Shown piece by piece: positions 5,081 through 22,841 of a DNA stretch of 64,000 nt (positions are counted from its first letter, which is position 1; each line of letters starts with the position of its first letter). The stretch comes from Geodermatophilus sabuli (GTDB lineage: Bacteria > Actinomycetota > Actinomycetes > Mycobacteriales > Geodermatophilaceae). Both the position numbers and the translations under genes were made by a program. The notes below the pieces were generated by a model. The model was given only the letters and a program-made list of their open reading frames with translations. It had not been told where the DNA came from and ran no database searches. The DNA lies in NCBI RefSeq assembly GCF_010686765.1, contig NZ_JAAGWF010000023.1:1-64000 (forward strand), written 5' to 3'.

Positions 5081-5102
5081 GATACTTCACCGCTAAGGGA
5101 TC
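5081..5102 (+). promoter_or_regulatory. Regulon operator, copy A (upstream of carbamate kinase)
   Basis: GATACT-TCACCGCTAA-GGGATC, with core 5087-5096 identical to the core in front of fdrA. A possible -35 (TTCACC, 5086-5091) lies inside it, and a TANNNT -10 (TAGGGT, 5109-5114) follows at 17 bp spacing. The -10 sits 6 nt before the GTG at 5121, the spacing expected of a leaderless actinobacterial transcript. A bound regulator would occlude the -35. The regulator is not identified. Confidence 0.6.
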
Positions 5103-5120
5103 CGCCGATAGGGTCCCTCC

Positions 5121-6077
5121 GTGACCCCCGCCCGCCGCGTCGTGATCGCCCTCGGCGGCAACGCGATGACGGGACCCGACGGCTCGGCGACGCCCACGGT
5201 GCAGCGGGACGCGATCCGCGAGGCAGCCGGCCACATCGCAGATGTCGTGGCGTCCGGCGTCGAAGTGGTCCTCACCCATGGCAACGGCCCGCAGGTGGGC
5301 AACCTGCTGGTGAAGAACGAGATGGCCGCGCACGTCGTCCCGCCCGTGCCGCTGGACTGGAACGTCGCGCAGACCCAGGCGACCATCGCGTTCACGCTCG
5401 CCGACGAGCTGGACGCGGCGCTCGCGGCCCGGGGCCTGTCCCAGCGCACGGCAGGGCTGGTCACCCGCACCCTCGTCGACGCCGACGATCCGGGTTTCCG
5501 GGAGCCGTCGAAGCCCGTCGGCCGATTCCTCCCGCGCGAGGAGGCCGAACGGTTCGTCGCCCTCGGTCAGATCTGGGAGGACCGGGGCGAGAAGGGCTGG
5601 CGCCGCATCGTGGCCTCCCCCGAGCCGAGGTCCGTCGTCGACTCCCCCGCGATCCACGCGCTGGCGGAGGCCGGCTTCGTCGTCGTCTGCGCCGGGGGCG
5701 GTGGCATCCCGGTGACCGACGACGGGAGTGACGGCGACGCGCTGCGCGGCGTCGAGGCCGTCATCGACAAGGACCTCACCGCCGCGATCCTGGCCCGCGA
5801 GCTGGACGCCGACACCCTGGTGATCGCGACCGACGTCCCCAACGTGATGGTCGACTTCGGGACGCCGACCGCACGACCCCTGGGTCGGGTGACCGTCAGC
5901 GAGATGCGCGGGCACGCCGCGGCCGGCCAGTTCGCCCGCGGGAGCATGGGCCCCAAGGTCGAGGCGGCCCTCCGTTTCGTCGACGGCTCTGCTGCCTCCC
6001 GCGCCGTCATCACGTCCCTCGAGCACATCGCCGACGCCGTCACCGACGACGACGCCGGCACCGTGATAGCCCCCTGA
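5121..6077 (+). CDS. arcC: Carbamate kinase
   Basis: 318 residues, the usual family length. Recognisable segments are [12 protein letters not shown] (N-terminal nucleotide/phosphate loop), [36 protein letters not shown] and [10 protein letters not shown]. The enzyme interconverts carbamoyl phosphate + ADP and ATP + carbamate (CO2 + NH3); in catabolism it makes ATP. No arginine deiminase or ornithine carbamoyltransferase gene is present. Instead it is followed 28 bp later by a ring-opening amidohydrolase and shares an operator with fdrA/DUF1116. That suggests its carbamoyl phosphate comes from a ureido acid, as in anaerobic allantoin breakdown. No convincing ribosome-binding site precedes the GTG, consistent with leaderless expression. 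Confidence 0.92.
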
Positions 6078-6105
6078 ACCGGAACTCCGAGCGAGAGGAA
6101 CCCCT

Positions 6106-7209
6106 GTGCCCGCACCGATCGAGGTCCGCAAGGTCCCGCTGCACAACGTCAGTGACGCCTCCGAGCTGGCCAAGCTCATCGACGACGGCGTCATGGAAGC
6201 CGACCGGGTCGTCGCCGTCATCGGCAAGACCGAGGGCAACGGCGGGATCAACGACTACACGCGGATCATCGCCGACCGCGCCTTCCGCGAGGTGCTGCTG
6301 GAGAAGGGCTCGCGGTCGCTGGATGAGGTCAAGCAGATCCCGATCGTGTGGTCGGGCGGCACCGACGGCGTCATCAGCCCGCACGCCACCGTCTTCGCGA
6401 CGCTCCCCGAGGACGCCGTCGAGAAGACCGACGAGCCGCGCCTGACCGTCGGCTACGCGATGAGCGACGTCCTGCTGCCCGAGGACATCGGCCGCCTCGC
6501 CATGGTCGAGAAGGTGGCCGACGGCGTGAGGAAGGCCATGGAGGCCGCGGGCATCACCGACCCGGCCGACGTGCACTACGTGCAGACGAAGACCCCGCTG
6601 CTGACGATCGACACCATCCGCGACGCGCGTGAGCGCGGGAAGACCACGTACATGCAGGAGCCGCACGGCTCGATGGACCTGTCCAACGGCACGACGGCGC
6701 TGGGCATCGCGGTGGCGCTCGGCGAGATCGAGATGCCGACGCAGGAGCAGGTCATGCACGACCTGTCCCTCTACAGCGCCGTCGCCTCCTGCTCCTCCGG
6801 CGTCGAGCTGGACCGGGCGCAGATCGTCGTCGTCGGCAACGCCCGCGGGCACGGCGGCGCCTACCGCGTCGGCCACTCGGTCATGGAGGACGCCCTGGAC
6901 CAGGACGGCATCTGGGCGGCCATCCGCGACGCCGGCCTGGACCTGCCCGAGCGTCCCCACCACACCGACCTCGGCGACCGCCTGGTCAACGTCTTCCTCA
7001 AGTGCGAGGCCTCGCCGGACGGCAAGGTCCGCGGGCGCCGCAACGCGATGCTGGACGACTCCGACGTCTCGTGGCACCGCCAGATCAAGGCGACCGTCGG
7101 CGGCGTGACGGCGTCGGTGACCGGCGACCCGGCCGTCTTCGTGTCCGTGGCCGCGGTGCACCAGGGGCCGTCGGGCGGCGGCCCGGTCGCCGCGATCATC
7201 AAGGCCTGA
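6106..7209 (+). CDS. Ring-opening amidohydrolase (barbiturase / cyanuric acid hydrolase family)
   Basis: 367 residues, matching this small family (about 355-375), whose members have three pseudo-repeats each contributing Lys and Ser residues. Candidate Lys/Ser segments are [67 protein letters not shown] and [13 protein letters not shown]. Members hydrolyse barbituric acid to ureidomalonate or cyanuric acid to carboxybiuret; sequence alone does not let me choose. Barbiturase is favoured by context: a shared operator with a uracil-type permease and a molybdenum hydroxylase. The GTG start has a GAGAGG site 8 nt upstream, and the gene lies 28 bp after arcC, an evident operon. Confidence 0.88.
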
Positions 7210-7232
7210 CCAGCGCCCCGCCCTGGCGTCGG

Positions 7233-7294
7233 TCATGGGGTCGTCGCTCCGCGACGCGCCGTCCGCGGCGTGTCCCCCGGCGACGACCCCGTGA
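7233..7294. terminator. Bidirectional hairpin between amidohydrolase and TetR genes
   Basis: TCATGGGGTCGTCG (7233-7246) pairs with CGACGACCCCGTGA (7281-7294) with one G-U type mismatch. The loop holds a second hairpin (GACGCGCCG / CGGCGTGTC). It lies exactly between convergent gene ends, without a T-tract, as is usual for high-GC actinobacterial terminators. Confidence 0.6.
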
Positions 7295-7900
7295 TCAACG
7301 CCGGCCGGGTGCCCGACCGGGGGCTCGGCCGGGCGAGACGCGCACCAGGGTGAAGCCGCGGGTGACCAGGTCCAGGAACCGGTCGGGCGGGTCGTCGGGG
7401 TCCCACGCGCGGAAAGCGGCTCCGAGGACGGCGCCGGTGGTGGCGGCCGCGAGCGCGGCGGCCAGCGGATCGGCGTACTCCCGGCGCACCCAGCCGTCCA
7501 GCGCCGTCTGGATGTGCCGGTAGGCGTCCTGCTGGTAGGCGGCGAGCTCCGGGTCCGCCGTCAGCCGGCGCCGGACGGCCAGGGTGGCGGTGTGGGTGGT
7601 CAGGTACTCCCGGCAGACCGCGCCGAGGGCCATCCACGGGTCGGTGGCACCGTCGGCGGCGGCGAGCAGCCCGGACAGCCGGGCCGCGTCGTCGGGATCG
7701 GGGTCGAACAGCGCGGCGGCCTTGGTTGGGAAGTGGTTGAAGAATGTCCGGCGGGAGACGCCCGCCGCCGCGGCGATGTCGTCGACCGTGACCGCCGCGA
7801 AGCCGCGCCGGCCGACCAGGTCGACGGCGGCGGCCTGCAGGGCCCGCCAGCTGTCCCGCCGCTGCGCCTCCCGTGCCGACAGCCGTTCCACGCCGCGCAC
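7295..7900 (-). CDS. TetR-family transcriptional regulator
   Basis: About 201 residues from GTG 7900 (GTG 7891 is the alternative). Longer in-frame readings up to 7996 would run through the palindrome at 7948-7960 and are rejected. The N-terminal helix-turn-helix is clear (VDLVGRRGFAAVTVDDIAAAAGVSRRTFFNHFPTK-like), with a divergent C-terminal ligand domain. It diverges from a mycofactocin-type SDR and probably represses it and itself through the palindrome between them. The ligand is unknown. Confidence 0.85.
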   Translation of the reverse strand: MRGVERLSAREAQRRDSWRALQAAAVDLVGRRGFAAVTVDDIAAAAGVSRRTFFNHFPTKAAALFDPDPDDAARLSGLLAAADGATDPWMALGAVCREYLTTHTATLAVRRRLTADPELAAYQQDAYRHIQTALDGWVRREYADPLAAALAAATTGAVLGAAFRAWDPDDPPDRFLDLVTRGFTLVRVSPGRAPGRAPGRR

Positions 7901-7947
7901 GCTAGCCGCCCGCGACCGCCGTCCCGGCCCTACAGTGCCCTCTTCGT

Positions 7948-7960
7948 TGCACTCAGTGCA
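7948..7960. promoter_or_regulatory. Palindromic operator TGCACT-C-AGTGCA
   Basis: A perfect 6-bp inverted repeat around one base, located between the divergent TetR gene and the SDR start at 7987. Further AGTGC half-sites occur nearby (7934). Size and position fit autoregulation by the adjacent TetR protein. Confidence 0.6.
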
Positions 7961-7986
7961 GTAAATGACGTCAGGAGACAGCTGGG

Positions 7987-8799
7987 ATGAGCACACGCCG
8001 ACTCGAGGGCAAGGTCGCCCTGATCACCGGGGCCGCCCGCGGCCAGGGCAGGGCGCACGCGGTGCGACTGGCCAGTGAGGGCGCCGACGTCATCGCCCTC
8101 GACGTCAACGCCGACGCGCCGACGACGGCCTACCCCGGACCCACGGCCGACGACCTGGCCGAGACGGTCCGGCTGGTCGAGGCGCAGGACCGGCGGATCA
8201 TCGCCCGTGAGGCCGACGTGCGGGACTTCGCGGCGGTCTCGGCCGTGGTCGAGGAGGGCGTGGCCGAACTGGGTGGGCTGGACGTCGTCGTCGCGAACGC
8301 CGGCATCTGCTCGGCGAACCTCTCGTGGGAGATCCCCGTCGAGCAGTGGCAGGAGACGATCGACACCAACCTGACCGGCGTCTTCTTCACCGCCAAGGCG
8401 ACCGTGCCGGTGCTCATCGAGCAGGGCCGGGGCGGCTCGGTGATCATCACCAGCTCGGTCGCGGGGCTGCGCGGGCTGCCGTTCCTGGGCCACTACGCGG
8501 CCAGCAAGCACGGCGTGGTCGGGCTGGCGCGGACGATGGCCAACGAGCTGGGGCAGTTCAACATCCGGGTCAACACGCTGCACCCGCACGGTGTCGCCAC
8601 CGGCATGACCGTCCCGGACATGCAGCCGCTCATGCAGCAGTACGCCAGCACCCTCGGGCCGATCTTCATGCAGACGCTGCCCGACCAGGTGTCGCAGCCG
8701 GAGGACATGGCCGCCGCCGTCGCGTGGCTGGCCTCCGACGACGCCCGGCACGTCACCGGCATCCAGCTCCCGGTCGACCTGGGCACGCTCGCCCGCTGA
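7987..8799 (+). CDS. Mycofactocin-type SDR-family oxidoreductase
   Basis: 270 residues, a Rossmann-fold short-chain dehydrogenase with TGAARGQGR (cofactor loop), VANAGIC, catalytic Ser in ITSSVAG and YxxxK as HYAASKHG. The RGQGRAHAVRLA segment and the long insert around AYPGPTADDLAETVRLVEAQ after beta-strand 2 are typical of the SDR group whose NAD is held tightly and re-oxidised through mycofactocin. Those enzymes oxidise alcohols or carveol-like terpenoids. No mycofactocin biosynthesis gene is in the window, so this rests on the family signature. It is divergent from a TetR regulator that probably controls it. Confidence 0.85.
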   Translation: MSTRRLEGKVALITGAARGQGRAHAVRLASEGADVIALDVNADAPTTAYPGPTADDLAETVRLVEAQDRRIIAREADVRDFAAVSAVVEEGVAELGGLDVVVANAGICSANLSWEIPVEQWQETIDTNLTGVFFTAKATVPVLIEQGRGGSVIITSSVAGLRGLPFLGHYAASKHGVVGLARTMANELGQFNIRVNTLHPHGVATGMTVPDMQPLMQQYASTLGPIFMQTLPDQVSQPEDMAAAVAWLASDDARHVTGIQLPVDLGTLAR

Positions 8800-8845
8800 C
8801 GACCGGCGGCCGGTGCGGGGAGCCGGCCCCCCGCACCCGGCTCGC

Positions 8846-9170
8846 GGGAGGACGGCGTCCACGTGGCCGCCGTCCACGCGCAGCGCACCCCCGGTGGGCG
8901 CCGGCGGCAGTGGCGAGGCGAGGTACACGCACATGTCGGCGATCTCCTCCGGCTCGATCAGCCGCTGCAGCAGGCACTGCGGCCGGTGCCGGCGCATGAA
9001 CTCCCGCGGCGCCTCGTCCCAGGGCAGGTCGCCCCCGACCAGCGGGTGGACGAAGTCCTCGACGCGCCGGTGCCCGTCGGCCCGGCGATCGCGGAGTCGA
9101 CGGTGACGCCCGAGCCGGCGGCCTCTTGGGCGAAGCCGCGGGAGACGGCCGGCAAGGCGGTCGCTGTTCC
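8846..9170 (-). pseudogene. Frameshifted C-terminal remnant of a second SDR
   Basis: On the minus strand, SRGFAQEAAGSGVTVDSAIAGPTGT in one frame continues as RVEDFVHPLVGGDLPWDEAP, then LLQRLIEPEEIADMCVYLASPL and GGALRVDGGHVDAVLP in another. The shift falls near 9067-9073. This is the classical C-terminal third of an SDR, without the cofactor loop or YxxxK, and without a stop at the usual place. It fills the 380 bp between the intact SDR and the next TetR gene. Confidence 0.75.
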
Positions 9171-9181
9171 GGCCCGAGCGG

Positions 9182-9895: not shown

Positions 9896-9939
9896 CGCGA
9901 TCCACTCCTCCGATGAGTTCCGCGACCCCTCGCCGTCTG

Positions 9940-9960
9940 GGTACTGTCCAGTGTAGTACC
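9940..9960. promoter_or_regulatory. Palindromic operator GGTACT-N9-AGTACC
   Basis: Perfect 6-bp arms (9940-9945 and 9955-9960) in the divergent intergenic region, 16 bp before the GTG of the DUF998 gene. Probable binding site of the flanking TetR protein. Confidence 0.6.
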
Positions 9961-9976
9961 GAAGAGAGGGAGTTCC

Positions 9977-10690: not shown

Positions 10691-10709
10691 GGGCCCCCGG
10701 GCCGGACGG

Positions 10710-12135: not shown

Positions 12136-12738
12136 TCAGCGGGAGTAGTACTCCACGACCAGCTGCTCCTCGCAGACCACGGGGACCTCACCGCGGCCCG
12201 GCGTCCGCTCGACGCGCGCCACGAGGTCGGCCAGCCGCACCTCGAGGTACGTCGGCGCCTCGGCGTGCGCACCGGACGCGGCGACGAGGAACGGCTCCTT
12301 CCTCTTCGACTTCTCGGCGACCTCGATGAAGTCGCCGGGCTGGAGCCGGTAGGACGGCCGGTCGACCCGCTTGCCGTTGACCAGCACGTGCTGGTGGGTG
12401 ACGAACTGACGGGCCTGGTAGATGGTCCGCGCGAACCCGGCACGCAGGACGGTGGCGTCCAGCCGCGACTCGAGGTCCTGGATGAGCGCCTCGCCGGTCT
12501 TGCCGCCCGAGCGCTTCGCCCGGTCGAAGGCCGCCCGGAGCTGGGTCTCGCTGACGTCGTACTGCGCGCGCAGCCGCTGCTTCTCCTTGAGCCGGGTCGA
12601 GTAGTCGCTGTCCTTGCGGCGCTTGCGGCCGTGCTCGCCCGGCGGGTAGGGCCGGCGCTCGAAGTACTGGACGCACTTGGGCGTCAGCGGGATGCCCAGC
12701 GCGCGGCTGAGCCGGACCTTGGGTCGCGGGGTGTTCAC
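12136..12738 (-). CDS. rpsD: 30S ribosomal protein S4 paralogue lacking the zinc-binding cysteines
   Basis: 200 residues from GTG 12738. The S4 hallmarks are present: YPPGEHG, KEKQRLRAQYDVSE, the S4 RNA-binding domain (LDATVLRAGFARTIYQARQFVTHQHVLVNGKRVD) and the final VCEEQLVVEYYSR. The N-terminus has a single Cys (PKCVQYFERR) instead of the four-Cys motif of zinc-binding S4. It stands alone rather than in an rpsM-rpsK-rpsD-rpoA operon, as does a similar S4 in Streptomyces. A second, operon-borne copy probably exists elsewhere (inference). An iron-box-like sequence lies 13 bp upstream. Confidence 0.92.
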   Translation of the reverse strand: MNTPRPKVRLSRALGIPLTPKCVQYFERRPYPPGEHGRKRRKDSDYSTRLKEKQRLRAQYDVSETQLRAAFDRAKRSGGKTGEALIQDLESRLDATVLRAGFARTIYQARQFVTHQHVLVNGKRVDRPSYRLQPGDFIEVAEKSKRKEPFLVAASGAHAEAPTYLEVRLADLVARVERTPGRGEVPVVCEEQLVVEYYSR

Positions 12739-12751: not shown

Positions 12752-12770
12752 TTTGGTTAGGCTCACCTTA
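12752..12770. promoter_or_regulatory. DtxR/IdeR-type iron box
   Basis: TTTGGTTAGGCTCACCTTA matches 17 of 19 positions of the actinobacterial iron box TTAGGTTAGGCTCACCTAA (established consensus for DtxR/IdeR/DmdR). It lies between the divergent S4 gene (start 12738) and DUF2470 gene (start 12810) and could repress either or both when Fe2+ is plentiful. Confidence 0.75.
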
Positions 12771-12809
12771 CTGCGCCATCACCACCCGCCGTCGACCCCG
12801 AGGGACGCC

Positions 12810-13565
12810 ATGACCACCGGTCGCCCGACCTCGCCACTCGTCCGCCGACCGGCGGGCCCGACCGCCGCCGAGCGGGCGCGGACGGTGGCCACCCGACCTG
12901 CCGTCTCGGTCTGCGCCCTGGGTCTGGGCACCAGCCGGCTGCAGGCGGCCGCCACCACGGACGCCGGGCAGGTGCTGGTCGTCGTCCCGCGGTCCGGCGG
13001 GCTGGCCGACGCGGTGCGCCGCGCCCCGCAGGGTGACCTGCCCGCCCGCGTGACGGTGACGTCCCGCTCCCCGCTGCCCCTGCGCAACCCGCTGCGGGCC
13101 CGCCTCGAGCTGGCCGGCTGGCTGGTCCCCGTACCGGCCGAGGACGAGGGGGACCTGGTGCTCGACTTCGCCGCGGCCCGGCCCACCGACGTCCTCCTCG
13201 ACGTCGGGCTCACCGCCACGCTGCTGCGCCTGGACGTCGCCGAGGTGCTGCTGCACGAAGGCGGCGCCTGCACCGAGATCACGCCGGAGGACTACGCCGC
13301 CGCGGCGCCGGACCCGGTGGGCGTGGCCGAGGAGGAGCTCTTCGCCGGCTCCGCGGACCCGCTGGCGCAGCTGTGCGGCCGGGTGCGCGCGTGGACCGGC
13401 GACGACGCCGTGCACCTGCTGGGCGCGGACCGCTACGGCGTCCTCTTCCGCGTGGAGCACCGGCGCGGGTGCTACGACCTGCGGACGCCGTTCGCCGCTC
13501 CGCTCCCGGGCGCGAGCGCCTTCCCCGCCGCCGTCCGCGCGCTGCTGGCCTGCGCCCGGGCCTGA
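12810..13565 (+). CDS. DUF2470 / haem-utilisation (HugZ-like) protein
   Basis: 251 residues. The N-terminal part (VVVPRSGGLADAVRRAP, RVTVTSRSPLPLRNPLRARL) resembles the split-barrel fold of pyridoxamine oxidase-like proteins. The C-terminal about 80 residues (DAVHLLGADRYGVLFRVEH, then a Phe/Leu-rich end) are a DUF2470 domain. This pairing occurs in HugZ-type haem-degrading proteins and in iron-regulated actinobacterial proteins. The iron box 40 bp upstream supports a role in haem or siderophore iron acquisition. ATG 12810 is chosen because an upstream start at 12753 would place the iron box inside the gene. Confidence 0.75.
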   Translation: MTTGRPTSPLVRRPAGPTAAERARTVATRPAVSVCALGLGTSRLQAAATTDAGQVLVVVPRSGGLADAVRRAPQGDLPARVTVTSRSPLPLRNPLRARLELAGWLVPVPAEDEGDLVLDFAAARPTDVLLDVGLTATLLRLDVAEVLLHEGGACTEITPEDYAAAAPDPVGVAEEELFAGSADPLAQLCGRVRAWTGDDAVHLLGADRYGVLFRVEHRRGCYDLRTPFAAPLPGASAFPAAVRALLACARA

Positions 13566-13599: not shown

Positions 13600-15006
13600 T
13601 CAGGCGGTGCGGGCCTCCTCCGCGAGCGCCCGCAGCGCCTGCTCGAAGCACTCCTGCGGCGGCTGCACCAGCCCGGCGCCCACCTGCCCGGTGCCGGCGA
13701 CGCGCCCGGCCATGCCCGTGTTGATCTGCGGCAGCCAGCCGGTGCGGGCCACCTGCAGGACGTCGATCCCGGTCGGGGAGCCGCGGAAACCCATGATCGG
13801 GATCGCCATCGCCGGGTTCTCGGCGAGGGTCAGCTGGTACATCCGCTCGGTGGTGGCCAGCGCGTCGGGCACGGTGCCGCCGACGAACCGGACGATCGCC
13901 GGCGCGGCCGCCATGGCGAACCCGCCCACGCCGTAGGTCTCCATGATCGCGGAGTCGCCGATGTCGGGGTTGGCGTCCTCCGGGCCGTAGTCGCCGAGGA
14001 AGAGGCCGACCGGCGTCTGCGCGGGCCCGGTGAACCAGCGGTCGCCGGTGCCGGCGGTCTGGATGCCGAACTCGGTGCCGTTGCGTGACATCACCGTGAG
14101 CATCGTCGACCCGGGGATCCCGCGGGCGGCGTCCAGCGCGAGCTTGGCCGTCGGCATGCCGAGGTTGAGGTAGAAGTGCTCGTTGCCGCCGATGAAGGCC
14201 AGCACGCGCGCGATGTCGGACGACGGCGCGTCGACCGCCACGATGGCCGGGGACAGCTCGCGCAGGGTCATCAGCGAGCCCGCGCGGTTGCGGTTGTGCC
14301 CCTCGTCGCCCATCTGCAGCATCTGCGCGAGGACGGCCTTGACGTCCAGCGGCTCGGCCATCGACCGGACCGCCTCCCGCAGCACCGGCCCCAGGACGTC
14401 GCGCATCCAGCGCAGCCGGGTGAGCACCTCGTCGTCGTAGGCGCCCATCCGCAGGACCTTGCCCAGGCCCTCGTTGAGGTTGCAGTACGCCCGGCCGCCG
14501 AAGACCGGGTCCGACAGGCACCACATCCACATCGACGGGCTGGTCACGCCGGCCATCGGGCCCACGGTGCGGTGGTGGTGGCAGGGGTCGAGGGTGACCG
14601 CGCCGGAGGCGAGCAGCTGCTCGGCGTCCTCCACCGTCGGAGCCCACTCCTCGAACAGCACGGCGCCGAGGAGCGCGCCGCGCATCGGGCCCGAGGCCGT
14701 CTCCCAGGTCAGCGGCGGGCCGGAGTGCAGCAGCGTGCGGTCGGGCAGGTCGAGCACCTCGCGCGCCGGCCGGACGTCGACCAGCTGGGATCCGGCGGCC
14801 ATGAGCCGCTCCACCGCGGTCCGGTTGGCCGCGGCCCGGCGCGGGTCGAGCGCGAGGGCGGCGAGGTCCGCGGCGTCCCCGAAGGCCGGCGGTCGCCACT
14901 CGACGTCGGCCACCGTGGCGCCCTGGGCGCGCAGCGCGTCGGAGAAGACGTCGACCCCGGCGGCGACGACGGCCGGCGGCGCGGACAGCAGGTCGGCGAG
15001 CGTCAT
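13600..15006 (-). CDS. DUF1116 family protein (YlbE-like; probable carbamoyltransferase component)
   Basis: 468 residues. Conserved segments include DPCHHHRTVGPMAGVTSPSM, QMGDEGHNRNRAGS, FIGGNEHFYLNLGM, VMSRNGTEFGIQ and NPAMAIPIMGFRGSPTGID. E. coli YlbE is of this family and, with FdrA and the DUF2877 protein YlbF, has been linked to oxamate carbamoyltransferase (oxalurate + Pi to oxamate + carbamoyl phosphate). Here ATG 15006 overlaps the fdrA stop (ATGA), so the two are coupled and probably form a complex. No DUF2877 gene is in the window. Annotating it strictly as oxamate carbamoyltransferase would be unsafe because the context points to pyrimidine rather than allantoin breakdown. Confidence 0.82.
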   Translation of the reverse strand: MTLADLLSAPPAVVAAGVDVFSDALRAQGATVADVEWRPPAFGDAADLAALALDPRRAAANRTAVERLMAAGSQLVDVRPAREVLDLPDRTLLHSGPPLTWETASGPMRGALLGAVLFEEWAPTVEDAEQLLASGAVTLDPCHHHRTVGPMAGVTSPSMWMWCLSDPVFGGRAYCNLNEGLGKVLRMGAYDDEVLTRLRWMRDVLGPVLREAVRSMAEPLDVKAVLAQMLQMGDEGHNRNRAGSLMTLRELSPAIVAVDAPSSDIARVLAFIGGNEHFYLNLGMPTAKLALDAARGIPGSTMLTVMSRNGTEFGIQTAGTGDRWFTGPAQTPVGLFLGDYGPEDANPDIGDSAIMETYGVGGFAMAAAPAIVRFVGGTVPDALATTERMYQLTLAENPAMAIPIMGFRGSPTGIDVLQVARTGWLPQINTGMAGRVAGTGQVGAGLVQPPQECFEQALRALAEEARTA

Positions 15007-16502
15007 GCGGAGGCTCCCAGCAGGTCGAGGGCGTGGCGGGTGGCCGCGGCGTTGGAGGCGAAGACGGCGGCACCGGCGCCGGCCAGGGCGTCGGCCTGCC
15101 GGCTCCATCCCTGCGGGTCGCCCTCCGTGCCGATCAGGGCGACGACGACCGGCAGGCTGCCGCTGCGCCGGGCCGCGGTGAGGGCGGGCACGAGCGAGTG
15201 CGCCGGATCGGGGTCCGCGCCGTGACCGAGGACGACGTCGAGGAGCAGCACCGCGGGCTCGCGCCGGGCTGCGAGGTCGCTGATCGCCTCCAGGCGGAGG
15301 GTCGGGTCGATCATCGGGTGGGCGCGGCCGACGGTCAGCGCGTCGTCCCCGAAGTCGATGACGACGTGTCCCGGGGCGGACAGGCCCTGGGCGGGTGGGT
15401 CGAGAGCGAGGTCCAGCTCGGGCCGGAGCGGGGTGTTGGAGCGGATGTCGCCGAGCGCCGGGGCGGCGATGAGCATCGCCTCGTCGGCGAGCGTGCCGCC
15501 GGAGAAGAAGCCCTTGAGGACGGCACCGGGCGCGGCGGTGCCGTCGCCCGGCCGGGCGGGCCAGGCGGGGACGTCGACGCCCAGGTCGGCGAGCAGCGCC
15601 TCGACCGCGGCGGTGAGGTCGGGGGTCTCCGGCGACAGGGCGGCCGAGCGCACCGGGACGGCGAGCTCGGCCGCGAACGACGACACCGTGGCGGCGACCG
15701 ACGGGGCGGGCGGCTTGGAGACCAGCAGCACCCGCTCCGTGGCCGGGTCGGCGTCCAGGGCCGCGAGCGCGTCGAGCGTGGCCAGCCCGCCGACCGCCTC
15801 GGACAGGTCGCGGCCGCCGACGCCGAGCACGTGCGAGACCCCGACACCGGCCATGTCGAGCAGGCAGGAGACCTGCTGGGCGCCGGTCCCGGATGCCGCG
15901 ACCAGCCCCACGGGGCCCGGCCGGACCACGTTGGCGAAGCCCAGCGCGACACCGGAGACGATCGCCGTCCCGCAGTCGGGGCCCATGACCAGCACGCCGG
16001 CGTCGTGCGCGGCCCGCTTGAGCGCGACCTCCTGCTCGACCGGGACCCCGTCGGAGAAGACCAGCACACTGCGGCCGGCGGCGATCGCGTCGGCGGCCTC
16101 CGCGACCGCGTACTGCCCCGGCACGCTGACGATCGCCAGGACCGACCCGCCGACCGGCGCGGCGTCGAGCCCGGCCCCGATGGTGCGCGGCGGGATGGCG
16201 TCGGTCGTCGTCCCGGTGCGCTCGCGGGCGGCGAGGGCCGCGTCGACGGCGTCGACCGCATCGGCCAGGACGTCGTCGTCCACGGCCGTGACCCCGATGA
16301 GCAACTGGTCGGGCGAGGCCGGGGTGTCGGGCGCCAGCCCCATGCCCGCGGCCAGCTCCAGGTTGAGCGGTGTGGCCATCGCGACGAGGACGGCGGAGAC
16401 CCCGTCACGGGCTCCGACGTCCCGGCTGACCTGCATCAACTTGACCGAGTCGCCGTAGACGCCGCTGCGGAGGGAGACGTGCCGGGAGGGACTGTCGCTC
16501 AC
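15003..16502 (-). CDS. fdrA: FdrA family protein (succinyl-CoA synthetase-like carbamoyltransferase component)
   Basis: 499 residues from GTG 16502. The FdrA opening (LRSGVYGDSVKLMQVSRDV) is clear. It is followed by a Rossmann-like region (VLVFSDGVPVEQEVALKRAA, VMGPDCGTAIVSGVALGFAN, GLVAASGTGAQQVSCLLD, GVGGRDLSEAVGG) related to succinyl-CoA synthetase alpha chains, and a C-terminal domain (FSGGTLADEAM, GHVVIDFGDDALTVGRAHPMID). FdrA homologues act with DUF1116 proteins in phosphorolysis of ureido acids to carbamoyl phosphate. Operator copy B lies 23 bp upstream, and a TAGCGT -10 (minus strand, 16516-16511) sits 8 nt before the GTG, suggesting a leaderless transcript. It diverges from the permease/hydroxylase operon. 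Confidence 0.87.
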   Translation of the reverse strand: MSDSPSRHVSLRSGVYGDSVKLMQVSRDVGARDGVSAVLVAMATPLNLELAAGMGLAPDTPASPDQLLIGVTAVDDDVLADAVDAVDAALAARERTGTTTDAIPPRTIGAGLDAAPVGGSVLAIVSVPGQYAVAEAADAIAAGRSVLVFSDGVPVEQEVALKRAAHDAGVLVMGPDCGTAIVSGVALGFANVVRPGPVGLVAASGTGAQQVSCLLDMAGVGVSHVLGVGGRDLSEAVGGLATLDALAALDADPATERVLLVSKPPAPSVAATVSSFAAELAVPVRSAALSPETPDLTAAVEALLADLGVDVPAWPARPGDGTAAPGAVLKGFFSGGTLADEAMLIAAPALGDIRSNTPLRPELDLALDPPAQGLSAPGHVVIDFGDDALTVGRAHPMIDPTLRLEAISDLAARREPAVLLLDVVLGHGADPDPAHSLVPALTAARRSGSLPVVVALIGTEGDPQGWSRQADALAGAGAAVFASNAAATRHALDLLGASA

Positions 16503-16524
16503 CTGCCGGGACGCTACCGGAGCA

Positions 16525-16546
16525 ATCGTCTTAGCGGTGAGACACC
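16525..16546 (-). promoter_or_regulatory. Regulon operator, copy B (upstream of fdrA)
   Basis: On the minus strand GGTGTC-TCACCGCTAA-GACGAT; the core (plus coordinates 16531-16540) is identical to copy A. It overlaps the expected -35 of the fdrA promoter, mirroring copy A at arcC. Confidence 0.6.
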
Positions 16547-16597
16547 TCGGACGGAGGCGGCACGGACGGCGGGGAAGGCGGCACCCACCTGCAATAA

Positions 16598-16620
16598 CGA
16601 TTTAGCACTGAGGTACTTCC
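16598..16620 (-). promoter_or_regulatory. Regulon operator, copy C (upstream of permease / Mo-hydroxylase operon)
   Basis: On the minus strand AAGTACC-TCAGTGCTAA-ATCG; core 16602-16611. It lies 106 bp before the permease ATG, and its core centre is 71 bp from copy B in the same divergent region. No clear promoter elements were found between it and the permease gene. Confidence 0.55.
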
Positions 16621-16717
16621 GCCGTCACCTGGTGCGTGACACATTGACGCCTCTCTGGTGCCGGCAACCTCCGTTGACCGGGTGGGCCAGCTCGTGGTGC
16701 ACGTCGAGGAGGCACTC

Positions 16718-18190
16718 ATGGCGTTCGGTTGGAAGCTCTACGGGGACGGCAAGACACCGCCGCTGGGCGAGGCCGTCGCTCCGGACGAGCGGTTGTCCTG
16801 GCCGCGCACGGTCGGCATCGGCGCGCAGCACGTCGTCGCCATGTTCGGGGCGACGTTCGTCTTCCCGATCATCATGGGACTGGACGCCAACCTCGCGATC
16901 ATGATGAGCGGCGTCGCGACGATCGTCTTCCTGCTGATCGTGAAGAACCGGGTACCGAGCTACCTGGGCACCAGTGCCGCGTTCGTGGGCGGCGTCGCGG
17001 CGATCCGCACCAACGGCGGTGACTCCAGCGACGTCGTCGGCGCGATCCTGGTCGCCGGCGTCGTCCTCGCCCTCGTCGGCCTGCTCATCCACTTCGCCGG
17101 CCTCGGCCTGGTGAACAAGGTGCTGCCCCCCGCCGTCACCGGCGCGGTGGTCATGCTCATCGGCTTCAACCTGGCCCCGGTGGCGGCCAGCACCTACTGG
17201 CCGCAGGACCAGTGGGTGGCCCTGGCCACGATGACCTTCGTCATCGTCGCCTCGCTGGCGCTGCGCGGCTTCCTCGCCCGCATCGCCATCCTGCTCGGCC
17301 TCGTCTTCGGCTACCTCCTGTCGGTGCTACTCGACGCCACCGCCGGCCCGATCACCTCGGTGCTGCCCACCGGCCCGGACCCGGTCGAGCACGACCGCAT
17401 CAACTTCGACTCGGTGTCCCAGGCCGACTGGTTCGGGTTCCCCGACTTCACCGGTCCCAGCTTCTCGCTGAACTTCAGCCTGCTCGTCCTGCCGGCCGTC
17501 ATCGCGCTCGTCGCGGAGAACGTCGGGCACGTCAAGGCCGTGGCCGAGATGACCAAGCGCGACCTGGACCCGGTCATGGGCCGGGCGGTGTTCGCCGACG
17601 GCGTCGGCACCGTGATCGCCACCTCGGTCGGCGGTTCCCCGACGACGACGTACGCCGAGAACATCGGCGTCATGGCCGCCACCCGCGTGTACTCCACGGC
17701 GGCGTACTACGTGGCCGCCATCGTGGCGATCCTGCTGGGCCTGGTGCCGAAGTTCGGCGCGCTGATCAACATCGTCCCGGGCGGGGTGCTCGGCGGGATC
17801 ACCGTCGTCCTCTACGGGATGATCGGCCTGCTCGGCGCGAAGATCTGGAAGGAGAACCGGGTCGACTTCGCCAACCCGATCAACCTGGTGCCGCTCGCCG
17901 CGGGCATCATCATCGGGATCGGTCCGGTCCGGCTACAGATCACCGACAACTTCTCCCTCGAGGGCATCGCCCTCGGGTCGATCGTCGCCGTCGCCGGCTG
18001 GCACCTCGCGCGGGCCCTGGCCCCGGCGGACATGAAGGCCGCGCTCACCCGCGAGGGCACGTCGCTGGACAGCGCGTCGACGCTGGGGCACACGCACGAC
18101 CAGTTCGGCGGCGCGGACCCGTCGTCGGTCGACGAGGTCGGCCGCCCGGGCGTTCCGCACAACCGTGGAGAGGGCACGCTCAACCGGTGA
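16718..18190 (+). CDS. NCS2 uracil/xanthine permease, uracil-type signature
   Basis: 490 residues from ATG 16718 with GAGGAGG 6 nt upstream. About 12-14 hydrophobic segments fit the NCS2 (UraA/RutG/PbuX) fold. VPSYLGTSAAF and the helix containing ALVAENVGHVKA match pyrimidine carriers. The signature GGSPTTTYAENIGVMAATRVYS carries Glu-Asn-Ile-Gly, as in UraA, rather than the Gln-Asn-Val-Gly of xanthine carriers. A polar tail of about 60 residues follows. Expected role: proton-coupled uptake of uracil or a related pyrimidine. The coxM-like GTG overlaps its stop, so transporter and hydroxylase are one operon. Confidence 0.9.
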   Translation: MAFGWKLYGDGKTPPLGEAVAPDERLSWPRTVGIGAQHVVAMFGATFVFPIIMGLDANLAIMMSGVATIVFLLIVKNRVPSYLGTSAAFVGGVAAIRTNGGDSSDVVGAILVAGVVLALVGLLIHFAGLGLVNKVLPPAVTGAVVMLIGFNLAPVAASTYWPQDQWVALATMTFVIVASLALRGFLARIAILLGLVFGYLLSVLLDATAGPITSVLPTGPDPVEHDRINFDSVSQADWFGFPDFTGPSFSLNFSLLVLPAVIALVAENVGHVKAVAEMTKRDLDPVMGRAVFADGVGTVIATSVGGSPTTTYAENIGVMAATRVYSTAAYYVAAIVAILLGLVPKFGALINIVPGGVLGGITVVLYGMIGLLGAKIWKENRVDFANPINLVPLAAGIIIGIGPVRLQITDNFSLEGIALGSIVAVAGWHLARALAPADMKAALTREGTSLDSASTLGHTHDQFGGADPSSVDEVGRPGVPHNRGEGTLNR

Positions 18191-19068
18191 AGCCCGCTCC
18201 CTTCCGGTACGCCGACCCCGGCACCCTCGACGAGGCCCTCGCGGTCCTGTCGGCAGAGGGTGCGGGCGCCAAGGTGCTCGCCGGTGGCCAGTCGCTGCTC
18301 CCGCTGCTCTCCATGCGGCTCGCGGCGCCGGCCACGCTGGTGGACATCAACGGGGTGCCCGGCCTCGACGCCGTCGAGGTCACCGGGGACGGCGTGACCG
18401 TGGGAGCACTGGTCCGGCACAACGCACTCCTGCACGACGACGCCGCCGCCCGGGTCCAGCCGCTGCTGGCCCGGGCGACGGCGAACGTCGCCCACCCGGC
18501 GATCCGCAACCGGGGCACCACCGTCGGCTCGATCGCGCACGCCGACCCCTCGGGCGAGATGACCTCCGTCCTCGCCCTCACCGACGGCTCCGTCACGGTC
18601 GCCACGCCCTCCGGTCCGAGCACCGTCGAGTGGCGCGACCTGTTCGTCGGCCCGCTGGAGACCTCGATCTCGGGACCGGCCGTCGTCACCTCCGCCTTCT
18701 TCCCCGCCCTGCCGCCGCGGTCGGGCACGGCCTTCGCCGAGATCGCCCGCCGCAAGGGCGACTACGCGGTCTGCGGCGCCGGCGTGGTGGTCACCCTCGA
18801 CGAGGACCAGCGCGTCGCCGCCGTCCGCGCCTCCTACGTCTCGGTCGGGCTGACCCCCGAGGTGCACGACCTCACCGACGCCGTGATCGGCTCGCCCGTG
18901 GAGAAGGCCGACTGGACCGCCGCGGGCGAGCTGGCCCGCACCCTGGTCGACCCGGACGGCGACATCCACGCCAGCGCCGACTACCGGCGCCTGCTCGTCG
19001 GCGTCCTGACCGGCCGGACGCTCGCCGAGGCTGCCGCCGAGGCGGCCGCGGCAGTGACCCGCGAGTGA
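18187..19068 (+). CDS. FAD-binding subunit of a xanthine dehydrogenase-family molybdenum hydroxylase (CoxM-like)
   Basis: 293 residues from the GTG overlapping the permease stop. KVLAGGQSLLPLLSMRL and RNRGTTVGSIAHADPSGEM are the two FAD-binding loops of the family, and RRKGDYAVCGAGVVV belongs to its C-terminal domain. The subunit passes electrons from the iron-sulfur subunit to FAD and an acceptor. It works with the following small and large subunits. The order permease-M-S-L-G puts the whole enzyme in one transcript with its likely substrate importer. Confidence 0.92.
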   Translation: MKPAPFRYADPGTLDEALAVLSAEGAGAKVLAGGQSLLPLLSMRLAAPATLVDINGVPGLDAVEVTGDGVTVGALVRHNALLHDDAAARVQPLLARATANVAHPAIRNRGTTVGSIAHADPSGEMTSVLALTDGSVTVATPSGPSTVEWRDLFVGPLETSISGPAVVTSAFFPALPPRSGTAFAEIARRKGDYAVCGAGVVVTLDEDQRVAAVRASYVSVGLTPEVHDLTDAVIGSPVEKADWTAAGELARTLVDPDGDIHASADYRRLLVGVLTGRTLAEAAAEAAAAVTRE

Positions 19069-19133
19069 GCAGCGCCAGCGAGCGAGGAGCGTCAGCGAGT
19101 GCGGAACCGAGCCATCGACACCGGGAGAGCTGC

Positions 19134-19649
19134 GTGACCTCCGTCGACACCGAGCGGACCATCACCGTCACCGTGAACGGTGTCCCCCGTGAAGCCACCG
19201 TGCCGGTGCGCCGCCTGCTGTCCGACGCGCTGCGCCACGACCTCGGGCTGACCGGCACGCACGTCGGCTGCGAGCACGGCGTCTGCGGGGCGTGCACGGT
19301 GCTGGTGGACGGCGACCCGGTCCGGTCCTGCCTGATGCTCGCCGTCCAGGTGGCGGGGCGGACCGTGACGACGGTCGAGGGGCTGGCCCGCGACGACCAC
19401 CAGGGCGGGCAGGTGCTGCACCCGGTCCAGGAGGCGTTCCGCGAGTGCCACGCGCTGCAGTGCGGGTTCTGCACGCCGGGCTTCCTCATGACGATCGCGG
19501 CGGGGCTGGAGAAGCGCGATCCGGCCGCCGAGCTGACCGAGGAGGAGGTCGACGACATGGTCGGCGGCAACCTCTGCCGGTGCACCGGCTACGCCAACAT
19601 CAAGAAGGCCGTGCACACCGCCGCCGCGACGATGAAGGACGCCCGGTGA
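19134..19649 (+). CDS. 2Fe-2S subunit of molybdenum hydroxylase (CoxS-like)
   Basis: 171 residues from GTG 19134. The N-terminal plant-type ferredoxin cluster is CEHGVCGACTVLVDGDPVRSC; the C-terminal cluster is CGFCTPG with CRCTGY. Both [2Fe-2S] sites are complete. It relays electrons from the molybdenum centre to the FAD subunit. A 65-bp gap before it holds a GCGAGCGAGGAGCG-like repetitive segment, and 106 bp after it hold two palindromes, unusual for the middle of such an operon. Confidence 0.93.
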   Translation: MTSVDTERTITVTVNGVPREATVPVRRLLSDALRHDLGLTGTHVGCEHGVCGACTVLVDGDPVRSCLMLAVQVAGRTVTTVEGLARDDHQGGQVLHPVQEAFRECHALQCGFCTPGFLMTIAAGLEKRDPAAELTEEEVDDMVGGNLCRCTGYANIKKAVHTAAATMKDAR

Positions 19650-19662
19650 CCACTCCCCGAGA

Positions 19663-19738
19663 GACCTTCGGCGCCGAGAGTCCGGCCCTCGGGGGTTTCC
19701 GCGGAAGAGCCCGGGGGACTTTCGGCGCCGAAAGTCCC
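19663..19738. repeat. Pair of GGGACTTTCGGC-type palindromes
   Basis: A perfect 24-bp palindrome (19715-19738, half-site GGGACTTTCGGC) and a degenerate copy (19663-19682, GACCTTCGGC/GCCGAGAGTC) lie between the small and large subunit genes. They could be small mobile palindromes, an mRNA-stability hairpin, or a protein site. Confidence 0.7.
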
Positions 19739-19755
19739 GAAACAGGGGGGCGGTC

Positions 19756-22176
19756 GTGACGACGAAGCTGTTCGGCGAGCCGGTCCGCCGGCGCGAGGAC
19801 GCCCGGCTGATCGTCGGCAGGGGCCGCTACCTCGACGACATCGGGCACACCGCCCTGGCCGCTGCCTTCGTGCGGTCGCCGCACGCGCACGCCCGCATCA
19901 CCGGGATCGACGTCGACGGCGCCCTGGACGTCGAGGGTCTGGTCGCGATCTACACCTACGAGGACCTGACCGGCCCGATGGCCGAGCCGCTGCCGGTGCT
20001 GATCCCGCACCCGCAGCTGACCGAGCCGCGCACCGGCTACCCGCTGGCCCGCGAGGTCGTGCGGCACGTCGGTGAGCCGGTGGTCATGGTGGTCGCCACC
20101 GACCGGTACGTCGCGGAGGACGCCGCCGAGCGGATCGTCGTCACCTACGACGAACTGCCGGTCGTCGTGGGCGTCGACGCCGCGTACGAGGCGCGGGCCG
20201 CCGTGCACGACGACGTACCGGACAACGTGGCCGCCCGTCACCACCAGGAGACCGGGGACGTCGAGCCGGCGCTGGCCGCGAGCCCCCGCACGCTGAGCTT
20301 CACCCAGTACATCGAGCGCAGCGCCAGCATGCCGATGGAGGGCCGGGGCGTGCACGCGCGCTGGGACGCCGACGACCGGTCACTCCGGGTCTACTCGAGC
20401 ACCCAGGCCTCGACGTCGGTGCGCGCGGCGATCGCGGCGAAGCTGGACCTGTCGCTGGACACGGTGGAGGTCATCGCGCCGGACGTCGGAGGTGGCTTCG
20501 GCGTGAAGATCGTGCACCCGTGGCCCGAGGAGCTGCTGGTGCCGATGGCGGCCATCGCGCTGGGCCAGGAGGTGAAGTGGGCCGAGGACCGCCGCGAGCA
20601 CTTCATCTCGTCGGCCCACGAGCGGCAGCAGCGCCAGGACGTCACCGTCGGCTTCGACGACGAGGGCAGGGTCACCGCCCTCGACGTCCACGTGCTGCAC
20701 GACAACGGCGCGTACACCCCCTACGGGATCATCGTGCCGATCATCACCGCCACCCAGCTGGTGGGCCCGTACGTGATCCCCGTCTACCGGGTGCGCGTGG
20801 ACAGCGTCTACACCAACACCGTCATCGTCACGCCGTACCGCGGCGCCGGGCGGCCGCAGGCCTGCTACGCGATGGAGCGGACGATGGACCGCATCGCCGA
20901 CGAGCTCGGGCTCGACCGCGCCGTCGTCCGCGAGCGGAACCTGATCCAGCCCGACCAGTTCCCCTACGACCACCACCTGACGTTCCAGGACGGCCGGCCG
21001 GTCATCTACGACTCGGGCGACTACCCGGGGCTGCTCGACAAGCTGCGGACGCTGGCGGACTGGTCGTCGGCCGACGTGCTCCGGGACGAGGCCGCGGCAC
21101 GCGGGAAGCTGCTCGGCATCGGGATGGCGATGTACGTGGAGGGCACCGGGCCCGGGCCGTACGAGGGCGGGCACGTCCAGGTGCTCGGCAGCGGCAAGGT
21201 GCTGGTGTCGACCGGGCTGACGTCGCAGGGACAGGGGCACGAGACGGCGTTCGCGCAGATCGTGGCCTCGGAGCTCGGAGTGCCCATCGAGGACGTCGAG
21301 GTGACCACCGGCGACACCCGGCGCTTCGCGTACGCCGTCGGCACCTTCGCCTCGCGGGCCGCGGTGATGAGCGGGAACGCCATCGCGCTGGCCGCCCGCG
21401 GCGTGCGGGAGAAGGCCCTGCGGATCGCCGCCGACGTCCTCGAGGCCGATCCGGGCGACCTGGAGATCGACGAGGGCCTGGTGCAGGTGCGCGGGACGCC
21501 GGGGGCCTCGATCCCGCTGCGGACGGTCGCCGTCCTCTCCAACCCGCTGCGCTACGCGTTCGACGAGGCCGCGAAGCAGGCGACCCAGTTCACGACGCAC
21601 GACGACTCCAAGCCGCCGGTGGCCGAGGGGGATGCGCCCGGCCTGGAGCACCGCGACTACTACTCGCCGATCCGGTCGACGTTCGCGTCCGGCGCGCACG
21701 CGGCGGTCGTGGAGATCGACCCGGAGACGTGGGAGATCGACGTCGTGCGGTACGCCGTCGTGCACGACTGCGGCAACGTGGTGAACCCGATGATCGTCGA
21801 GGGCCAGGTGCACGGCGGTGTGGCCCAGGGCGTGGCCGGCGCGTTGTACGAGCGGATGGCCTACGACGCGGACGGGCAGCTGCAGAACGCCTCGTACATG
21901 GACTTCCTCATGCCCTACGCCTCCGAGGTGCCCGACGTCGACATCGACCACCAGCAGACGCCGTCGCCGCTGAACCCGCTGGGGATCAAGGGCGCCGGTG
22001 AGGCCGGCGTCATCCCGGGGACGGCGGCGATCGCGTCGGCGATCGAGGACGCGGTGGGACGGCGGATCACCTCGATGCCCATCTCCCCCACCGAGCTGTA
22101 CGACCTGATGCGTTCCGAGGACTCGGAGACGACCGCCACGGCCGCGCGCCGGGCGGGGACTGGAGTGATGGCGTGA
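19756..22176 (+). CDS. Molybdopterin-binding catalytic subunit, xanthine dehydrogenase family (CoxL-like, not CO dehydrogenase)
   Basis: 806 residues from GTG 19756. The start GEPVRRREDARLIVGRGRYLDD and PDVGGGFGVK are typical. The active-site loop reads TPYRGAGRPQ and lacks the AYRCSFR loop with the Mo-Cu cysteine that defines form I CO dehydrogenase. The catalytic Glu lies in GIKGAGEAGVIPG. It should therefore hydroxylate a heterocycle or similar substrate with water-derived oxygen. Given the uracil-type permease in the same operon and the barbiturase-family regulon partner, uracil (or thymine) 6-hydroxylation to barbiturate is the preferred inference; purines or nicotinate-like rings remain possible. 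Confidence 0.9.
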   Translation: MTTKLFGEPVRRREDARLIVGRGRYLDDIGHTALAAAFVRSPHAHARITGIDVDGALDVEGLVAIYTYEDLTGPMAEPLPVLIPHPQLTEPRTGYPLAREVVRHVGEPVVMVVATDRYVAEDAAERIVVTYDELPVVVGVDAAYEARAAVHDDVPDNVAARHHQETGDVEPALAASPRTLSFTQYIERSASMPMEGRGVHARWDADDRSLRVYSSTQASTSVRAAIAAKLDLSLDTVEVIAPDVGGGFGVKIVHPWPEELLVPMAAIALGQEVKWAEDRREHFISSAHERQQRQDVTVGFDDEGRVTALDVHVLHDNGAYTPYGIIVPIITATQLVGPYVIPVYRVRVDSVYTNTVIVTPYRGAGRPQACYAMERTMDRIADELGLDRAVVRERNLIQPDQFPYDHHLTFQDGRPVIYDSGDYPGLLDKLRTLADWSSADVLRDEAAARGKLLGIGMAMYVEGTGPGPYEGGHVQVLGSGKVLVSTGLTSQGQGHETAFAQIVASELGVPIEDVEVTTGDTRRFAYAVGTFASRAAVMSGNAIALAARGVREKALRIAADVLEADPGDLEIDEGLVQVRGTPGASIPLRTVAVLSNPLRYAFDEAAKQATQFTTHDDSKPPVAEGDAPGLEHRDYYSPIRSTFASGAHAAVVEIDPETWEIDVVRYAVVHDCGNVVNPMIVEGQVHGGVAQGVAGALYERMAYDADGQLQNASYMDFLMPYASEVPDVDIDHQQTPSPLNPLGIKGAGEAGVIPGTAAIASAIEDAVGRRITSMPISPTELYDLMRSEDSETTATAARRAGTGVMA

Positions 22177-22841
22177 ACCTCGACGGCTCTGCGGTGCTCT
22201 CGGCCGACCCGGAGAGGGTGTGGGCGGTCATCACCGACCCGGCCGTGCTGGCGCGGACGATCCCGGGCTGCGAGTCGCTGGAGCAGGTCGGGGACGACGA
22301 GTACAAGCTGAACGTCTCGGTCGGCGTCGGCGCGATCCGTGGGACGTACGCCGGCGAGGTGCGGCTGTCGGACAAACAGCACCCGAAGTCCTACGTCATG
22401 CACGCGTCGGGTGCCGGTGCGCCGGGGAACGCCCGGGCGACGGTGACCATCAACCTCGAGCCCGGCGAGCATGGGACGACGAACCTCACCTACTCCGCCG
22501 ACGCCGTGATCGGCGGCCCGGTCGCGGGTGTGGGCCAGCGGATGATCACCGGCGTCGCCAAGCGGATGGCCGGGCAGTTCTTCTCGGCCATCGACGGCGA
22601 GCTGACCGGTGCCGTCGTGCCGATCGGCGCTGCGCCCTCCGCTGCGGCTGCGACGACGAGCGACGCCTCGCTGGTGGTCGGCGGCGCACCGGTCGCTGCT
22701 GCGGGTCGGACGTTCACCGGCAGGGCAGCGGCTCCGGCGCCGGCCGGCGACGCCAAGACGCTGCTCCTCGGGGCGGTCGGCGGCGCGGTCCTGACCCTCG
22801 TCGGCGTCCTCGTCGGCTACCGCCTGGGCCGCCGTCACTGA
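22173..22841 (+). CDS. CoxG-like SRPBCC protein with C-terminal membrane anchor
   Basis: 222 residues; the GTG overlaps the large-subunit stop. Residues 1-150 are a CoxG/SRPBCC domain (SADPERVWAVITDPAVLARTI, PGCESLEQVGDDEYKL). An Ala-rich linker leads to one C-terminal hydrophobic helix (LLLGAVGGAVLTLVGVLVGY) ending RLGRRH. CoxG proteins tether molybdenum hydroxylases to the membrane and help pass electrons to quinone. This predicts that the hydroxylase feeds the respiratory chain rather than NAD+. Confidence 0.88.
   Translation: MNLDGSAVLSADPERVWAVITDPAVLARTIPGCESLEQVGDDEYKLNVSVGVGAIRGTYAGEVRLSDKQHPKSYVMHASGAGAPGNARATVTINLEPGEHGTTNLTYSADAVIGGPVAGVGQRMITGVAKRMAGQFFSAIDGELTGAVVPIGAAPSAAAATTSDASLVVGGAPVAAAGRTFTGRAAAPAPAGDAKTLLLGAVGGAVLTLVGVLVGYRLGRRH

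Follow-up and report, generated by a model that had tools for sequence, protein, structure and literature searches.

A 64,000-nucleotide stretch of Geodermatophilus sabuli DNA (hereafter the window; it opens contig C6 of a genome of 4.8 Mb and has a G+C content of about 75%) carries genes that quite probably belong to an energy-conserving oxidative pyrimidine pathway, in which a carbamoyltransferase of the AllFGH family would phosphorolyse ureidomalonate and a carbamate kinase would make ATP. Uracil would be taken up by an NCS2 permease and oxidised to barbiturate by a CoxLMS-type molybdenum hydroxylase (Mo-hydroxylase), and a barbiturase would open the ring of barbiturate to yield ureidomalonate. 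AllF and AllG, together with AllH, which is encoded elsewhere in the genome, would then convert ureidomalonate and phosphate to malonamate and carbamoyl phosphate. From the latter and ADP, the carbamate kinase encoded beside the barbiturase would form ATP, CO2 and NH3. Ureidomalonate was assumed to be the AllFGH substrate by analogy with oxalurate, which is one CH2 group shorter. Relatives with fuller clusters also encode an amidase that could convert malonamate to malonate, as well as a coenzyme A (CoA)-transferase and a carboxyltransferase-like protein that could take malonate on to acetyl-CoA. Gene identities, linkage and co-occurrence were established by computation, and each reaction was assigned from protein family and gene context. 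The genes form three blocks, namely a tandem of arcC and the barbiturase gene (plus strand), the overlapping allG and allF (minus strand), and a divergent block for the permease, the Mo-hydroxylase and a CoxG-like protein (plus strand). All genes named in the original prediction, which had been made from the sequence alone (permease, Mo-hydroxylase, CoxG, a barbiturase-family enzyme, carbamate kinase, FdrA and DUF1116), were located at their given positions by family matches.

In Escherichia coli, allF, allG and allH jointly encode oxamic transcarbamylase, which interconverts oxalurate with oxamate and carbamoyl phosphate; assays of the purified protein followed the reverse reaction, and the family is stated to be unrelated to known transcarbamylases (PMC11326118). 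By sequence comparison, we assigned the FdrA and DUF1116 proteins of the window as AllF and AllG of an enzyme of this type. AllG (YlbE/DUF1116; 13600..15006, minus strand) is 48% identical to its E. coli counterpart and scored 316 bits with PF06545 and 414 bits with its solved relative, PDB entry 3clq. Its gene overlaps by 4 bp with that of AllF (FdrA; 15003..16502, minus strand), which showed 37% identity to E. coli AllF, with the motif HPMIDP common to both. AllF scored 96 bits with Ligase_CoA, 229 bits with the solved FdrA 3dmy, and 378 bits with NF004760, below the cut-off of 433. The third subunit, AllH, is encoded outside the window (contig C87, 78093-78404) and shares 31% identity with E. 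coli AllH in its C-terminal part; hence all three subunits are encoded in this genome. The original prediction had envisaged an enzyme made of FdrA and DUF1116. While both families were borne out, the two-part make-up was not, and the AllH gene on the other contig ruled out a two-subunit enzyme lacking AllH. An open reading frame (ORF) of 230 residues located 3′ of allG (12768-13460, minus strand) was considered as AllH and dropped, as it had no family match. The allH gene on C87 (L160:5211-8441) adjoins a divergent PucR-like gene (36% by BLAST), apart from allFG, and in a relative of the same family, G361, allH (C14) and allG (C9) likewise lie on separate contigs. The carbamate kinase (ArcC/AllK type; 5121..6077, plus strand) is 40% identical to E. 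coli AllK and scored 114.7 bits with AA_kinase and 296 bits with NF009007, above the cut-off of 266.

We assigned the ring-opening enzyme (6106..7209, plus strand) as a barbiturase and not a cyanuric acid hydrolase (CAH). In a comparison with PDB entries, the barbiturase 5hwe scored 643 bits, while the next entry, a CAH, reached 335 bits and the other CAH entries no more than that. CAH enzymes are marked by R194 and R324 (Pseudomonas numbering) and by the motif SGGxExQGPxGGGP, as given in PMC9118981. The window enzyme has N and K at these two positions (AtzD numbering), the same letters as 5hwe, and the motif was not matched. For the barbiturase subgroup, another paper names a glutamine at the position of R188 (Azorhizobium numbering; PMC4051656). 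The AtzD R194 column in the window enzyme holds N instead of that glutamine, so the two numbering schemes may not correspond position by position. Scores, sites and motif contradict an enzyme specific for cyanuric acid, the outcome that the original prediction had named first among those that would refute it. The nearest barbiturase relatives among GTDB genomes belong to Blastococcus and Geodermatophilus.

The permease (16718..18190, plus strand) was classified as NCS2 with RutG/uracil as the nearest subfamily: it scored 266 bits with PF00860 and 306 bits with TIGR00801 (cut-off 292), and among subfamily models the RutG model scored best (384 bits) and the uracil permease model gave 300 bits, both below their cut-offs. 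It is followed on the same strand by the three subunits of the Mo-hydroxylase, i.e., the FAD subunit (18187..19068; FAD_binding_5 133 bits, CO_deh_flav_C 58 bits), the 2Fe-2S subunit (19134..19649; Fer2_2 96 bits, Fer2 37 bits) and the large subunit (19756..22176), a proposed uracil dehydrogenase, and by the CoxG-like protein (22173..22841; PF06240 98 bits). The motif AYxCSFR is the active-site signature of the CO-oxidising form I aerobic carbon monoxide (CO) dehydrogenase. The large subunit carries PYRGAGR and lacks AYxCSFR. It scored 1456 bits with NF040766, a model of type 'exception' for aerobic CO dehydrogenase group 5 (cut-off 950). The same model exceeded its cut-off in 75 of the 76 barbiturase genomes described below (the miss being G018), a scan that covered barbiturase genomes only, so that specificity for the pathway cannot be read from this count. 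Judging from the lack of the form I motif and from the occurrence in nearly all barbiturase genomes, the label 'aerobic CO dehydrogenase group 5' is probably wrong for the large subunit in the barbiturase-bearing group.

The original prediction had also noted a common operator, and three sites of the pattern TTAGCNNTGANGTACNTC in the window support it. The predicted sites lie 5′ of arcC (5079..5096, minus strand, two mismatches; kept in relatives), in the divergent promoter region, nearer to fdrA (16531..16548, plus strand, two mismatches), and 5′ of the permease gene (16602..16619, plus strand, exact match). Allowing up to two mismatches, the whole genome contained 10 matches, compared with four for a backwards control pattern; the three window sites account for the only exact genomic match and for two of the nine matches with two mismatches. 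In relatives, 58 of the 63 regions preceding arcC in L002-L067 contained the operator within three mismatches, as did 32 of 34 fdrA-ncs2 intervals within two. Shuffled regions gave a best match of three mismatches in 0.5% of cases and one of two mismatches in almost none. As the pattern was built on the three sites in the window itself, and as close kin were compared, this conservation partly reflects shared descent. In L068-L081, which include some metagenome-assembled genomes labelled Geodermatophilaceae, the regions 5′ of arcC had more than three mismatches in 11 of 12 cases; since only the remaining one reached three, the operator belongs to part of the group and not to the pathway at large. 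In other genomes, a PucR-type regulator is encoded inside the cluster.

To follow the gene set across genomes, the same 393 Actinomycetes genomes were surveyed for AllG, barbiturase, AllH and allantoinase. AllG was found in 88 genomes, AllH in 80, allantoinase above cut-off in 179 and the window barbiturase in 82. Six of these 82 (G027, G388, G080, G085, G105, G285), with 37-41% identity, were left out, giving 76 genomes with a strong barbiturase (at least 74% identity; in two pieces in G188). AllG and strong barbiturase occurred together in 75 genomes, AllG alone in 13, barbiturase alone in one and neither in 304 (phi 0.90). The correlation was even closer for AllH (74 both, six AllH only, two barbiturase only, 311 neither; phi 0.94). 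AllG and allantoinase, by comparison, were barely associated (51 both, 37 AllG only, 128 allantoinase only, 177 neither; phi 0.13); the allantoinase status of AllG genomes was read from best E-values, none of which fell between about 3e-89 and 8e-142. Both AllG and AllH were present in 74 of the 76 strong barbiturase genomes, and 26 of these 74 had no allantoinase above cut-off. AllD exceeded its cut-off in none of the 76 barbiturase genomes, with weaker matches in 19 and no match in the G. sabuli genome. Thus, the genome survey proposed in the original prediction came out in its favour, with AllG and AllH following barbiturase. Physical linkage was frequent as well: of 75 genomes, 51 had barbiturase and AllG on one and the same contig (at most 50 kb apart in 43 of the 51), and AllG and AllH were at most 10 kb apart in 69 of 74. 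A pathway-type arcC, defined by at least 54% identity to the window arcC, was present in 68 of the 76 barbiturase genomes and lay within 3 kb of the barbiturase gene in 66. Of 80 GTDB loci, 75 have arcC immediately 5′ of barbiturase. The exceptions are two loci from Rhodococcus (L075, L079), two from Modestobacter (L049, L057) and one from Trujillonella (L034, where the absence refers to the locus only). The genomes of the former four lack AllG, while that of L034 has it; in arcC-bearing loci whose genomes were searched, AllG was found in seven out of seven. It appears likely that these genes represent a widespread actinobacterial branch of pyrimidine oxidation, in which an AllFGH-family ureidomalonate carbamoyltransferase would gain one ATP and bypass urea, and in which the group 5 'CO dehydrogenase' would be a uracil dehydrogenase.

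The distribution of urea-using enzymes was also compared. Urease was above cut-off in all five barbiturase genomes without AllG (those of L075, L079, L049 and L057, plus G185), compared with 26 of 75 AllG-positive genomes; the latter number rises to 29 with the addition of three ureases that score below cut-off (in G234, G048 and, split into pieces, G058), and the Fisher p ranges from 0.007 to 0.012. Seven AllG-positive genomes were devoid of a pathway-type arcC, and five of them had urease and two had urea carboxylase above cut-off. Taken together, every one of the 12 genomes lacking pathway-type arcC had urease or urea carboxylase, but only 22 of the 68 that carry it did (25 of 68 including sub-cut-off ureases). 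The Fisher p of about 1e-5 to 3e-5 belongs to a post hoc comparison, and the p-values of both comparisons treat genomes as independent, though they represent few lineages (about five by our reading). Genomes G393-G396 had been added because they lacked arcC beside barbiturase and were not picked for urease. A search of the G. sabuli genome itself gave no match for urease and none above cut-off for urea carboxylase, so that urea would lead nowhere in this organism unless it has some other enzyme for it.

Fuller clusters, in which allFGH, PucR, permease, Mo-hydroxylase, carbamate kinase and barbiturase stand together, occur in several families. In G358 (L163, L164), one strand carries allG, fdrA and allH, the other PucR, ncs2, cutM, cutS, coxL, coxG, amidase, HyuA, HyuB, an NmrA-like protein, arcC and barbiturase, after which genes for a carboxyltransferase-like protein and a CoA-transferase III follow on the first strand again. 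Much of this set was also found in stretches of G288, G026, G074, G107, G234 and G300, the last without arcC. G358 has no allantoinase above cut-off and no urease match. The carboxyltransferase-like protein and CoA-transferase III beside barbiturase (L164:10574-13236; also in Rhodococcus L079) might constitute a module leading from malonate to acetyl-CoA. When three cluster amidases were compared, they were 59-70% identical mutually and 40-43% identical to the Rhodococcus amidase. Against solved structures, the amidase matched malonamidase E2 distantly (79 bits), and many other amidases scored higher, including biuret hydrolase with 180 bits; the malonamate amidase step is thus a guess. Four such amidases used as queries (tblastn, E 1e-5) had no match in the window, the part of the genome to which this search was confined.

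Three other explanations of the gene set were weighed. AllFGH and carbamate kinase could have the role known from E. coli, where they convert oxalurate to oxamate in allantoin degradation, their nearness to the pyrimidine cluster being incidental. The identities of AllF, AllG, AllH and the kinase to the E. coli proteins given above would suit this explanation, as would the allantoinase above cut-off in the G. sabuli genome and in 48 of the 74 genomes that combine barbiturase with AllG and AllH. However, the other 26 genomes, the low phi of AllG with allantoinase and the distribution of AllD, the oxalurate maker in E. coli, all argue against it, and we regard it as quite improbable. Alternatively, an amidase could hydrolyse ureidomalonate to malonate and urea, as a classical ureidomalonase, with AllFGH and ArcC acting on another pathway compound or in the direction of carbamoylation. 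In agreement with this notion, an amidase gene directly follows barbiturase in Rhodococcus L079, two Rhodococcus genomes lack AllG, a related amidase occurs within AllFGH clusters, and about a third of AllG-positive genomes have urease above cut-off. The window, though, gave no match to the four amidases, and the G. sabuli genome has no urea-using enzyme above cut-off. In addition, such enzymes accompany the absence of pathway-type arcC far more regularly than its presence, and the cluster amidases, being closer to each other than to the Rhodococcus enzyme, could equally act on malonamate. We therefore consider this alternative unlikely. Finally, were the ring-opening enzyme a CAH, the cluster would degrade triazines via biuret. 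The NCBIfam equivalog CyanAcHdlAtzD indeed names the enzyme a cyanuric acid amidohydrolase (473 bits, cut-off 360), a name that we judged an overcall, since neither R194/R324 nor the CAH motif is present. The motif and the PDB scores, with 5hwe far ahead of the best CAH, led us to rule out cyanuric acid degradation, for which we see hardly any likelihood.

Several observations nevertheless weigh against ureidomalonate phosphorolysis as the role of AllFGH and ArcC. The G. sabuli AllH is encoded on a different contig from AllF and AllG, which makes this genome one of five in which AllG and AllH do not share a contig; it is only 30% identical to the AllH of the G358 cluster and has no operator upstream (none within four mismatches). 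The carbamate kinase scored 338 bits with TIGR00746, under the model's cut-off of 358. As the genome encodes an allantoinase above cut-off (contig C112, 564 bits), allantoin may be used here too. AllG was found without a strong barbiturase in 13 genomes, among them G265, which has neither a barbiturase match nor an allantoinase above cut-off and yet carries an fdrA-allG-arcC run (L178:7152-11040) near a PucR-like gene, indicating that enzymes of the AllFGH family act on one or more other substrates as well. Moreover, the cluster amidase passes the same subfamily model as the Rhodococcus amidase (NF005686; 477 and 709 bits, respectively, cut-off 465) and could hydrolyse ureidomalonate directly. 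Pathway-type arcC is absent from the seven AllG-positive genomes mentioned above. Five of these have a distant arcC homologue (43-46% identity) far from barbiturase, G188 has a 33% fragment match, and G179 combines AllG, AllH and barbiturase with no arcC match at all.

The proposed ATP-yielding route resembles several known systems in part. With AllFGH/AllK of E. coli it shares homologous AllF, AllG, AllH and carbamate kinase, and carbamoyl phosphate would be expected to serve ATP formation in both. In contrast to E. coli, the genes here are tied to barbiturase instead of allantoinase, AllD is not found above cut-off, the probable substrate is longer by one CH2 group and, in this genome, allH is unlinked. 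In the agmatine and arginine deiminase routes, a ureido compound is phosphorolysed by a carbamoyltransferase and ATP is then gained from carbamoyl phosphate via carbamate kinase, just as proposed here. In the present case, however, an AllFGH-family enzyme would be the carbamoyltransferase, with a substrate derived from a pyrimidine ring. For agmatine, an energy route with carbamoyltransferase and carbamate kinase is described in PMC3282769. The oxidative uracil pathway, in turn, has been portrayed as a rare route with malonate and urea as its end products (PMC3758960), and the amidase after barbiturase in Rhodococcus L079 fits the barbiturase and ureidomalonase route published there. Rhodococcus shares with G. 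sabuli a barbiturase of 81% identity and a permease of the same family, and with the fuller clusters of relatives the CoA-transferase and carboxyltransferase-like genes. Two Rhodococcus genomes differ in having no AllG, no arcC match and a urease, whereas in G. sabuli carbamoyl phosphate would replace urea. In nitrifiers, allFGHK has been reported beside triuret and biuret genes and was read as serving oxalurate degradation (PMC12625717). In a library of open-licence PubMed Central papers, none was found that links barbiturase to carbamate kinase, fdrA or DUF1116; subscription papers may say more.

If the proposal is correct, most barbiturase-bearing Actinomycetes (the 74 of 76 with AllG and AllH) could use a variant of the pathway with substrate-level phosphorylation, and AllFGH would represent a family with several substrates. 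The automatic labels 'oxamate carbamoyltransferase' and 'aerobic CO dehydrogenase' would then be wrong for the barbiturase-linked group, and barbiturate, phosphate and ADP incubated with barbiturase, AllFGH and ArcC should give ATP.

Some further genes stand near the set. The portion at 7.2-13.6 kb (TetR, SDR, hydrolase, S4 protein and others) varies among the loci of relatives and lies outside the pathway set. Within it, an S4-type ribosomal protein gene (12136-12738), seemingly unrelated to the pathway, is found near allG in many barbiturase loci of Geodermatophilaceae. At the far end of the window, the start of a hyuA gene (63803..64000, plus strand) is cut by the window end and showed 84% identity to L049 HyuA across 64 residues (tblastn). 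The hyuA-hyuB pair continues along contig C6 (L198:1803-5779) with 86% and 79% identity to the cluster relatives. Apart from this pair, two more stretches each of C6 and C87, searched for pathway genes, gave just a 38% bmpA-like match. HyuA/HyuB pairs (hydantoinase/oxoprolinase family, caprolactamase-like) are encoded in or beside many barbiturase clusters (e.g., L164:3300-7390, L049:17562-21100), including L049, whose genome lacks AllG. In the same Modestobacter locus (L049:2063-9838), CoxE, XdhC and further ORFs, which by size only might encode a nucleoside ABC transporter, are directly joined to barbiturase, permease and Mo-hydroxylase, and L057 is alike by ORF sizes.

In an AllG tree (with an E. 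coli row of 61 residues and a very long L188), the barbiturase-free L177 and L178 fell on a long branch among others, from which we drew no inference. AllG-family matches without an AllH match were seen in G003, G140, G267, G354, G381 and G388, all of the same order, and four of these scored 191-248 bits, far below the barbiturase-linked ones. A plasmid search gave 132 records, 130 of them with less than 60% identity, and 36 of the 40 listed were about 47% identical.

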